From the NCBI GenBank assembly GCA_024641135.1, contig JAHEDS010000001.1:1-43791 (forward strand): a DNA stretch of 43,791 nt, in the 5' to 3' direction. Of this stretch, positions 2,821 to 17,773 are shown piece after piece. Positions within the stretch are counted from its first letter, which is position 1; each line of letters opens with the position of its first letter. The position numbers and the translations under genes are program-made. This DNA comes from Flavobacteriales bacterium (lineage in GTDB: Bacteria > Bacteroidota > Bacteroidia > Flavobacteriales > Flavobacteriaceae). Below the pieces are notes generated by a model, which saw nothing but the letters and a program-made list of their open reading frames with translations, searched no databases and had not been told where the DNA came from.

Positions 2821-2874
2821 GAGAGTGTTTATGAATTAAGGTCTTAATCTTATCCTTCGATAAACGTTGATCTC
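2821..2874 (-). promoter_or_regulatory. Candidate structured leader (ribosomal-protein leader type) before rpsD
   Basis: In minus-strand RNA the rpsK-rpsD gap folds by eye into nested stems: GAGA (2874-2871) with UCUC (2824-2821); GUUUAU (2865-2860) with AUAAAC (2832-2827); and an inner hairpin AUUAAG-AC-CUUAAU (2848-2835). A smaller alternative, UUAUC-GAAG-GAUAA, competes with the second stem. The structure ends about 17 bases before the S4 start codon, so it could control rpsD translation. S4 is a known autoregulator in other phyla, and I recall that S4 leader candidates have been proposed for Flavobacteria, but I cannot confirm that this sequence matches one. No energy was computed. Confidence 0.5.
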
Positions 2875-12988: not shown

Positions 12989-13618
12989 TTATTTACTTAA
13001 ATTCGATTCAATTCCTTCTAAAGAGCTCTCTAAAAGCACAATCTGATTTGCATTTAAAATCTTGTAAGTGCTTAATTCTGTGTTAGTTATAACTTCAGAC
13101 CCTTTGAAATTGCGTGACGACAAATATACATTATTATTTGAAGCCCCCAACACAAAGAGAGATTTTTTGTTTTCTAAGTTTAAAGCTTTTAAAACCGCAG
13201 TGAAATTTTTGGTTTTTGGAGCATCAAAATTAAAGTCTTCTAAAACAACAATTGACTTCTCTCCTGCTTTAATACTTAAGGCTGATTTACGTGCTAAACG
13301 CTTTAAGCTTTTATTAAGTTTGAAGCTATAATTTCTTGGTCTTGGACCGAACATACGACCACCACCTTTAAAAACTCCTGACTTAATGCTACCAGCTCTC
13401 GCTGTACCAGTTCCTTTTTGCTTTTTAATCTTACGTGTACTTCCAGAAATCTCAGCTCTTTCTTTCGATTTATGAGTTCCTTGTCTTTGATTTGCTAAAT
13501 ATTGTTTAACATCCAAATATACCGCGTGATTATTAGGCTCAATAGCAAACACATCTTGAGAAAGCTCTGCTTTTCTACCTGTGTCTTTTCCGTTTATATC
13601 TAAAACTGCTACTTTCAT
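12989..13618 (-). CDS. rplD: 50S ribosomal protein L4
   Basis: uL4 lines the exit tunnel with an extended loop, here about residues 45-95 ([54 protein letters not shown]). In E. coli L4 represses the S10 operon by causing attenuation in the leader; the attenuator-like element between rpsJ and rplC (14268-14340) is two genes upstream here, so L4 is the first candidate ligand. Length is 209 residues. The start codon overlaps the rplC stop by one base, implying translational coupling. Confidence 0.99.
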
Positions 13619-14235
13619 TATTTTCTAATAATTACATAAGAGTTTTTATGTCCAGGTACACAACCTTTCACTACAAGTAGATTCTTTTCAGCAACTACTT
13701 TTAAAACTCTTAAATTTTCAACTTTTACATTATCACCACCCATTCTTCCTGCCATACGCATTCCTTTGAATACTCTAGAAGGATACGAAGATGCTCCTAC
13801 AGAACCAGGCGCTCTTAAACGGTTGTGTTGACCGTGAGTAGCTTGACCTACACCACCAAATCCATGGCGTTTTACAACACCCTGAAATCCTTTTCCTTTT
13901 GACACACCAGCGATGTCAACAAATTCACCTTCTATAAAGTGCTCAACAGTGATTGCATCACCTAATTTGTACTCCTTATCAAAACCTTTAAATTCAACGA
14001 TTTTGCGTTTTACAGAAGTCCCTGCTTTTTTAGCGTGACCTTGGTCAGCTTTAGTAGCACTTTTTTCTGTCGCGTCATCGAAACCTAACTGAACAGCTTT
14101 GTAGCCATCCACTTCTTCAGTTCTGACTTGGGTAACGATACATGGTCCAGCTTCAATAACTGTACAAGGAATATTTTTCCCGTTGCTATCAAAGATGCTG
14201 GTCATACCGATTTTTTTTCCAATTAACCCAGACAT
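13618..14235 (-). CDS. rplC: 50S ribosomal protein L3
   Basis: uL3 starts large-subunit assembly and reaches the peptidyl-transferase centre through its loop. It begins [20 protein letters not shown] and has the signature [20 protein letters not shown] followed by [20 protein letters not shown]. Length is 205 residues. It is the first gene after the attenuator-like element, with a 138-base gap from rpsJ, so it would open the part of the operon that this element controls. Confidence 0.99.
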
Positions 14236-14267: not shown

Positions 14268-14301
14268 AAAAAACTCAGGGTCGAAATACGTTCAACCCTG
14301 A
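14268..14301 (-). terminator. Intrinsic-terminator-like hairpin inside the S10 operon (rpsJ-rplC)
   Basis: In minus-strand RNA, UCAGGGUUGAA and UUCGACCCUGA pair over 11 positions (one U-G wobble) around the loop CGUAU, followed by G and six U. This has all parts of an intrinsic terminator but sits 32 bases before the rplC start codon, upstream of about 28 essential genes. It therefore must be bypassed most of the time, which suggests conditional termination. The overlapping hairpin at 14284-14309 would prevent it from forming. Confidence 0.7.
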
Positions 14302-14309
14302 ATGTATTT
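14284..14309 (-). promoter_or_regulatory. Alternative (antiterminator-like) hairpin overlapping the rpsJ-rplC terminator
   Basis: In minus-strand RNA AAAUAC pairs with GUAUUU (6 bp). Inside it, across one A-C mismatch, UUCA pairs with UGAA around the loop GGGU. The element uses both the left arm and the loop of the terminator stem, so the two folds exclude each other. Stem lengths were checked base by base; relative stability was not computed. Confidence 0.5.
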
Positions 14310-14319
14310 TTACCGTTTT

Positions 14320-14365
14320 TCCTTCGCTCGCAGCTTAGGACATGTTTTCAAGGAAACTCCCTTGA
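14320..14365 (-). promoter_or_regulatory. Structured segment upstream of the attenuator (possible ligand-binding site)
   Basis: Two more hairpins lie between the rpsJ stop and the terminator. The first (14348-14365) is UCAAGG-GAGUUU-CCUUGA. The second (14320-14340) is UCCU, an AA/GA internal loop, GCU-GCG-AGC and AGGA. A short stem interrupted by a small purine internal loop is the kind of element ribosomal proteins bind. No ligand can be named from sequence; L4, encoded downstream, is the first candidate by analogy with E. coli. Confidence 0.4.
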
Positions 14366-14373
14366 TATACTAA

Positions 14374-14679
14374 CTATACTTTAATCTCTACTTCTACACC
14401 ACTTGGCAATTCTAGTTTCATCAAAGCATCAATAGTTTTTGATGATGAACTATAAATATCAAGTAATCTCTTATAAGAACTTAACTGAAATTGCTCTCTA
14501 GACTTTTTATTTACGTGCGGAGAACGCAATACAGTGAAAATTTTCTTGTGAGTTGGTAATGGAATAGGACCTGTTACTACAGCACCAGTACTTTTTACCG
14601 TTTTTACAATCTTATCTGCAGACTTATCTACTAAGTTGTGATCGTAAGACTTTAATTTTATTCTTATTTTTTGACTCAT
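14374..14679 (-). CDS. rpsJ: 30S ribosomal protein S10
   Basis: uS10 is a 30S head protein that also works as the antitermination factor NusE with NusB. It begins [20 protein letters not shown] and carries the signature [20 protein letters not shown] (about residues 36-55). Length is 101 residues, normal. It follows fusA by 12 bases, while the next gene rplC is 138 bases away across a terminator-like element, so S10/NusE would be made even when the rest of the operon is attenuated. Confidence 0.99.
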
Positions 14680-17699: not shown

Positions 17700-17742
17700 A
17701 TAATTTATATGTTTATTTAAATTACCTCTGTTTAGAGGGCTG

Positions 17743-17773
17743 CAAATGTAGAAATAAAAAAGTATTTTTCAAA
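17743..17773 (-). promoter_or_regulatory. Promoter of the ribosomal cluster (TTTG-N19-TACATTTG)
   Basis: On the minus strand a TTTG (17773-17770) is followed by exactly 19 bases and TACATTTG (17750-17743), which fits the Bacteroidota sigma-70 consensus TTTG-N19-TAnnTTTG perfectly. Transcription would start a few bases after the -7 element, leaving a leader of roughly 40 bases before rpsL. I found no comparable match in the longer internal gaps of the cluster. Confidence 0.85.

Follow-up and report, generated by a model that had tools for sequence, protein, structure and literature searches.

Why does an intrinsic terminator stand inside a ribosomal-protein operon, between rpsJ and rplC, ahead of the large rplC...rplQ block? 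The S10-spc-alpha genes account for about half of all ribosomal proteins. We examined this locus in a stretch of 43,791 nucleotides from a Flavobacteriales bacterium (contig JAHEDS010000001.1, positions 1 to 43,791), here called the window, for which an attenuator-like switch had been proposed from the sequence (the original prediction).

Anatomy and folding of the rpsJ-rplC gap

The gap is 138 nt long and contains a conserved element of 81 nt, in which ACAUGUC, the hairpin P1, GGAAAAACGG and an antiterminator/terminator pair follow one another from 5' to 3'. The features of the locus, all on the minus strand, are listed below together with the basis of each assignment.

17742..17773 (-): Bacteroidota-type promoter (TTTG...TACATTTGC) before rpsL; pattern scan
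14374..14679 (-): rpsJ (uS10), the upstream gene; NCBIfam rpsJ_bact
14348..14365 (-): upstream hairpin P0, outside the conserved element; folds in the window
14268..14348 (-): whole conserved element; match to covariance model R1, 86.2 bits, E 1.3e-17
14338..14345 (-): near-invariant strand ACAUGUCC, which adjoins the 5' side of P1 and extends into it
14320..14340 (-): P1 hairpin, UCCU...AGGA, whose internal loop in this genome is of the UAA/GAA type; fold and covariation
14313..14322 (-): near-invariant GGAAAAACGG 3' of P1; alignment A1
14284..14309 (-): antiterminator hairpin, outer stem AAAUAC/GUAUUU, inner stem UUCA/UGAA; prefix folding and strand swapping
14268..14303 (-): intrinsic terminator, 13-pair stem and U6, exclusive with the antiterminator; folding, terminator scan and covariation
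13618..14235 (-): rplC (uL3), the first controlled gene; NCBIfam L3_bact
12989-13618 (-): rplD (uL4), next after rplC; NCBIfam rplD_bact

The gap folds to -33.1 kcal/mol (z = -3.8), and none of 200 shuffled sequences reached so low an energy. Both the fold and the terminator scan confirmed the full intrinsic terminator with U6 of the original prediction; its stem had been given as 11 bp and comes to 13 pairs when G-U is counted (14303-14291 / 14285-14273), with 5 G-C pairs and a loop of 5. Among the terminator-like sites on both strands between 500 and 17900, it has the most pairs and the most G-C pairs, and the sole other strong minus-strand terminator in that interval is the operon-end site at 535-509. 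The overlapping hairpin exists as proposed, with AAAUAC (14309-14304) paired to GUAUUU (14289-14284) and UUCA (14302-14299) to UGAA (14294-14291), and it shares bases with the terminator. When folding was followed along the growing transcript, the antiterminator had the lowest energy for as long as the 3' arm of the terminator had not emerged. The idea of two near-equal states had to be given up: the predicted stabilities are about -5.7 kcal/mol for the antiterminator vs about -18 kcal/mol for the terminator. Because the antiterminator is lowest in energy first and the terminator afterwards, the two states are sequential and exclusive, and with the terminator about 12 kcal/mol ahead, read-through must be kinetic or assisted.

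Two further hairpins had been described upstream. Both fold as described; P1 (14340-14320) is conserved and P0 (14365-14348) is not a part of the conserved element, since some relatives have merely about 10-12 nt 5' of the element, where P0 would sit. An AA/GA internal loop had been suggested as the protein site. The invariant bases instead border P1: across the 77 aligned sequences the A, AUG, U and C of the ACAUGUCC strand are unchanged on the 5' side, and GGAAA..ACGG is found on the 3' side. The top of P1 is variable, with UAA/GAA-like internal loops as the commonest type, full Watson-Crick stems (UCCUUAAC/GUUAAGGA) in others, and a third type besides. As Watson-Crick pairs replace the AA/GA loop in other lineages, this loop is not essential for binding; the unpaired invariant bases next to P1 have the look of a recognition site. 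We also considered whether the invariant CGG pairs with the 3' arm of the terminator, which is possible in the window and fails in four loci (L089, L105, L123 and L130), where the arm changes while CGG stays constant.

Conservation, covariation and linkage to rplC

Gaps between rpsJ and rplC were taken from about 140 loci of Bacteroidota. One common element, composed of (A)ACAUGUC, P1, GGAAAAACGG and the antiterminator/terminator, was present in nearly all Flavobacteriaceae gaps outside the genus Flavobacterium, and the Bacteroidales gaps, most of them just 20-45 nt long, were without it. In the resulting alignment of 77 distinct sequences (A1), the covariation score of P1 was 0.264 vs 0.119 after shuffling (0/500 as high). 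For the terminator, 93.6% of the cells were paired, 9 of the 12 modelled pairs had both-side changes, and the score was 0.384 vs 0.215 after shuffling (0/500). RNAalifold, run unguided, recovered the same two stems.

The MAFFT columns (A2) put the antiterminator out of register, and it was therefore tested by swapping strands between genomes. Strands from the same genome gave a duplex energy of -3.61 vs -2.68 (sd 0.15) for permuted pairs, better than all 5,000 permutations, and their helix score beat all 10,000 permutations (z 6.8), both sets being uncorrected for shared descent. With the 25 most divergent sequences, 1 of 10,000 permutations equalled the own pairing. Both-side changes from AAAUAC/GUAUUU were seen to AACAAA/UUUGUU, AAAUAA/UUAUUU and AAUAUA/UAUAUU, and the inner stem UUCA/UGAA is replaced by UCUA/UAGA in one locus (L091). 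P1, terminator and antiterminator thus all covary.

The covariance model (R1) matched 243 of 301 Flavobacteriaceae genomes, nearly always in single copy; the filters of these large scans were strict, and failure to find the element in a single genome does not prove that it is absent. By genus the figure was 191 of 237, and among good genomes 219 of 251; the next-best match in the window had E 0.15. The check in relatives therefore came out in favour of the original prediction, in that the terminator/antiterminator pair ahead of the rplC...rplQ block is conserved and its hairpins covary. Scans of the order (298 genomes) and of the phylum (248) gave few and weak matches outside the family (best E ~2e-4), none of them convincing. 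No R1 match came from genus g129, presumably Flavobacterium, and the rpsJ-rplC gaps of named Flavobacterium loci are without the element; this genus and some small-genome lineages do without it. A small RNA switch precedes the main ribosomal-protein genes in most marine flavobacteria. The Flavobacterium gaps (L094, L096, L098 and L101) contain a terminator and a promoter, together with a conserved 5' UTR of a different sequence, CUCCCUGUUUGGAAAUUUCUGUUAUUUUCAAAUUGAAGGGAA, which is perhaps another leader.

In the window, the pattern scan detected no -7 box between rpsJ and rplC, and the promoter before rpsL, the only plausible Bacteroidota-type one in the upstream part of the operon, likely supplies the transcripts that enter the element. 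The element accordingly lies inside a long operon here, after rpsJ, as had been stated. Ten other element-bearing loci have gaps of about 290-520 nt in which a TA(n)TTTGC box precedes the element by 42-73 nt, which turns the element into the 5' leader of rplC there; several of these gaps also carry a terminator after rpsJ. In one genome (G124, locus L185), 8.4 kb of genes, two of them with GH18 chitinase domains, split rpsJ from rplC. The element has kept its place some 35 nt ahead of the start of rplC and is preceded by a promoter-like TAAATTTGC; by eye, rpsJ is followed by a terminator-like hairpin of its own. All element-bearing loci that were read have the element immediately 5' of rplC. 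Since the linkage survives new promoters and the 8.4-kb insertion, the conserved partner is rplC and the genes downstream of it, and the element goes with rplC rather than with the rpsJ-rplC junction. This speaks against the purpose first proposed, that of separating S10 and EF-G from the rest, because the element stays with rplC behind a new terminator and promoter or behind the insertion. Its loss in Flavobacterium and the repeated gain of promoters before it offer natural comparisons.

Several side observations were made on the surroundings of the element. The insertion in G124 (L185 2507-10814) breaks the str-S10 gene order. In loci of the Polaribacter/Tenacibaculum type (L089, L105, L107, L123 and L130), a second hairpin that is conserved (AGACGCGCUGGAUAA...UAUCGUCU) follows the terminator and precedes the start codon of rplC; the window is without it. 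Palindromic intergenic repeats such as GGACAAGTCGCGACTTGTCC flank the element in L014, L033 and L103, and repeats of the CCTGAGCGCAGTCGAAGG type do so in other loci. The window also contains an S4-Flavobacteria r-leader (RF03141) before rpsD at 2827-2865 (-), which brings the RNA control points inside the operon to at least two.

Proposed mechanism, candidate ligands and alternatives

A conserved sensing domain followed by an antiterminator and a terminator is the anatomy of an attenuation-type ribosomal-protein leader (r-leader). We favour the reading that the element is an autogenous r-leader controlling the rplC...rplQ block by transcription attenuation, at a probability of roughly 0.72; conditional read-through, protein binding, the direction of the effect and the ligand are what we infer. 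RNA polymerase would leave rpsJ, or in other lineages start at a promoter in the gap. In the nascent RNA, P1 would form first and then the antiterminator, sequestering the 5' arm of the terminator; without a timely intervention the polymerase would pass the U-tract, and the ribosomal-protein genes would be made. An excess ribosomal protein of the operon would bind the invariant single strands and P1 (ACAUGUC-P1-GGAAAAACGG). Binding would disfavour the antiterminator, whose 5' strand comes directly after GGAAAAACGG, and the terminator would form. The purpose would probably be to shut off ribosomal-protein synthesis during excess.

By analogy with E. coli, uL4 is our tentative candidate for the ligand, with somewhat less than an even chance, and uL3 and the other operon proteins would rank behind it. 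A comparison of R1 with rRNA, in which an imitation could point to the ligand, gave nothing convincing in 23S and no match in 16S. The uL4 region of 23S, at the location that we assume for it, shares just the variable letters of P1, and neither for uL4 nor for uL3 did the element convincingly imitate the rRNA site. The flavobacterial 23S segment CAUGUCCGAGAGGGAAAGAAC, presumably in helix 39, resembles the invariant bases AUGUC...GGAAAAAC. The 23S segment CATGTCCGAGAGGGAAAGAACC (L152) resembles the invariant bases and fits a strict pattern that occurred in 4/2000 shuffles and a looser one that occurred in 82/2000; both patterns were chosen post hoc, and the segment is therefore kept as a lead only. 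It seems unlikely, if worth bearing in mind, that this new r-leader family answers to a protein not known to autoregulate, which would recognise AUGUC...GGAAAAAC. If true, the RNA would imitate rRNA and be recognised by a protein of the operon that is not uL4, in the largest ribosomal-protein operon and throughout a whole bacterial family. A likeness of AUGUC...GGAAAAACGG to the rplC start (AUGUCUGGG...GGAAAAAAAAUCGG), noticed by eye, was set aside as probably due to chance, because the L3 N-terminus is conserved.

Alternatively, binding could promote read-through, and a positive effector is the main alternative on the direction of the effect. A ribosomal protein, Nus factor or other ligand would then bind the P1 region, favour the antiterminator and turn the operon on. 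Such assisted read-through is plausible, since the terminator is by far the lower-energy state; however, known r-leaders mostly repress (PMC7247131), and no boxA-like sequence was seen on inspection by eye, which leaves this alternative rather improbable.

The same full and thermodynamically dominant terminator inside the operon might instead act constitutively, as a partial terminator that lowers the transcript level of the genes after rpsJ and needs no ligand. Such a device would leave the invariant ACAUGUC/GGAAAAACGG, the covariation of P1 and that of the antiterminator unexplained, as well as the retention of the element directly behind rplC-specific promoters, and we give it little credence.

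Translation-coupled attenuation fares worse still. Here the invariant AUG of ACAUGUC, which has an A-rich context, would open a short upstream reading frame that decides the fold, and AUG-UCC/UCU-stop does occur in 29/77 sequences. The frames nevertheless vary in length (2, 4, 6, 10, 11, 16, 17, 21, 23 or 24 codons, or no stop), and the bases downstream of the AUG track P1 pairing and not codons. We rejected a leader-peptide attenuator, as the AUG is conserved but the frame and its length are not, and regard the reading as very improbable. A small-molecule riboswitch for a growth signal, whose layout would likewise place a conserved domain ahead of an antiterminator and a terminator, is the least credible, given that one short hairpin and about 17 conserved bases are unusually small for an aptamer, that the apical part of P1 is freely replaced and that the element is tied to a ribosomal-protein operon alone.

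Comparison with known regulators

The autogenous r-leader that we favour has one of its closest known counterparts in the E. coli S10 operon, where uL4 causes Rho-independent termination in the RNA leader (PMC10931766). That leader controls rplC, rplD and further genes, as the present element would; it precedes rpsJ, whereas the present element follows rpsJ and precedes rplC. Searched with R1 up to E 10, the rpsJ region of E. coli (L190) yielded nothing. We know of no antiterminator of the present form in E. coli. Position and sequence therefore set the element apart from the uL4 leader family of E. coli, although it may work like the E. coli leader.

In Rfam 15 no family scored above its gathering threshold for the element, and a search of the gap under strict and permissive settings returned matches at chance level alone; Rfam is not exhaustive here, because the E. 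coli S10 leader is also without a match. The S4-Flavobacteria r-leader (RF03141) shares operon, genome and lineage with the present element and differs from it as a short lone hairpin with a 33-position model. Candidate leaders before rplC or S10-operon genes have been proposed in the form of the Archaeoglobi L4 and Firmicutes S10 r-leaders (PMC7247131), which belong to other lineages. Eckert and Weinberg list leaders in Flavobacteria for S4, S15, S16 and L19, with none before rplC (PMC7247131). In L20 or rpsL leaders, ribosomal-protein binding or leader folding decides on an intrinsic terminator (PMC7247131; PMC2965389); the mode would be the same, while genes and sequences are different and the present element has no Rfam match. 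The literature and RNA catalogues that we searched describe neither this element nor any regulator of the main S10-spc-alpha block for Flavobacteriaceae.

What was found at the locus, namely a covarying RNA structure, a position upstream of ribosomal-protein genes and an expression platform of a terminator with an exclusive antiterminator, is what an r-leader would show, and we class the element as a probable new family of this known kind. As a small RNA of <85 nt it is readily testable, and its ligand could be found by simple binding assays. A compact attenuator present in about 190 sampled genera would fill the regulatory gap for the main block in Flavobacteriaceae, and set beside the E. coli leader it would show once more that regulation of the S10-spc-alpha operon was invented separately in different lineages.
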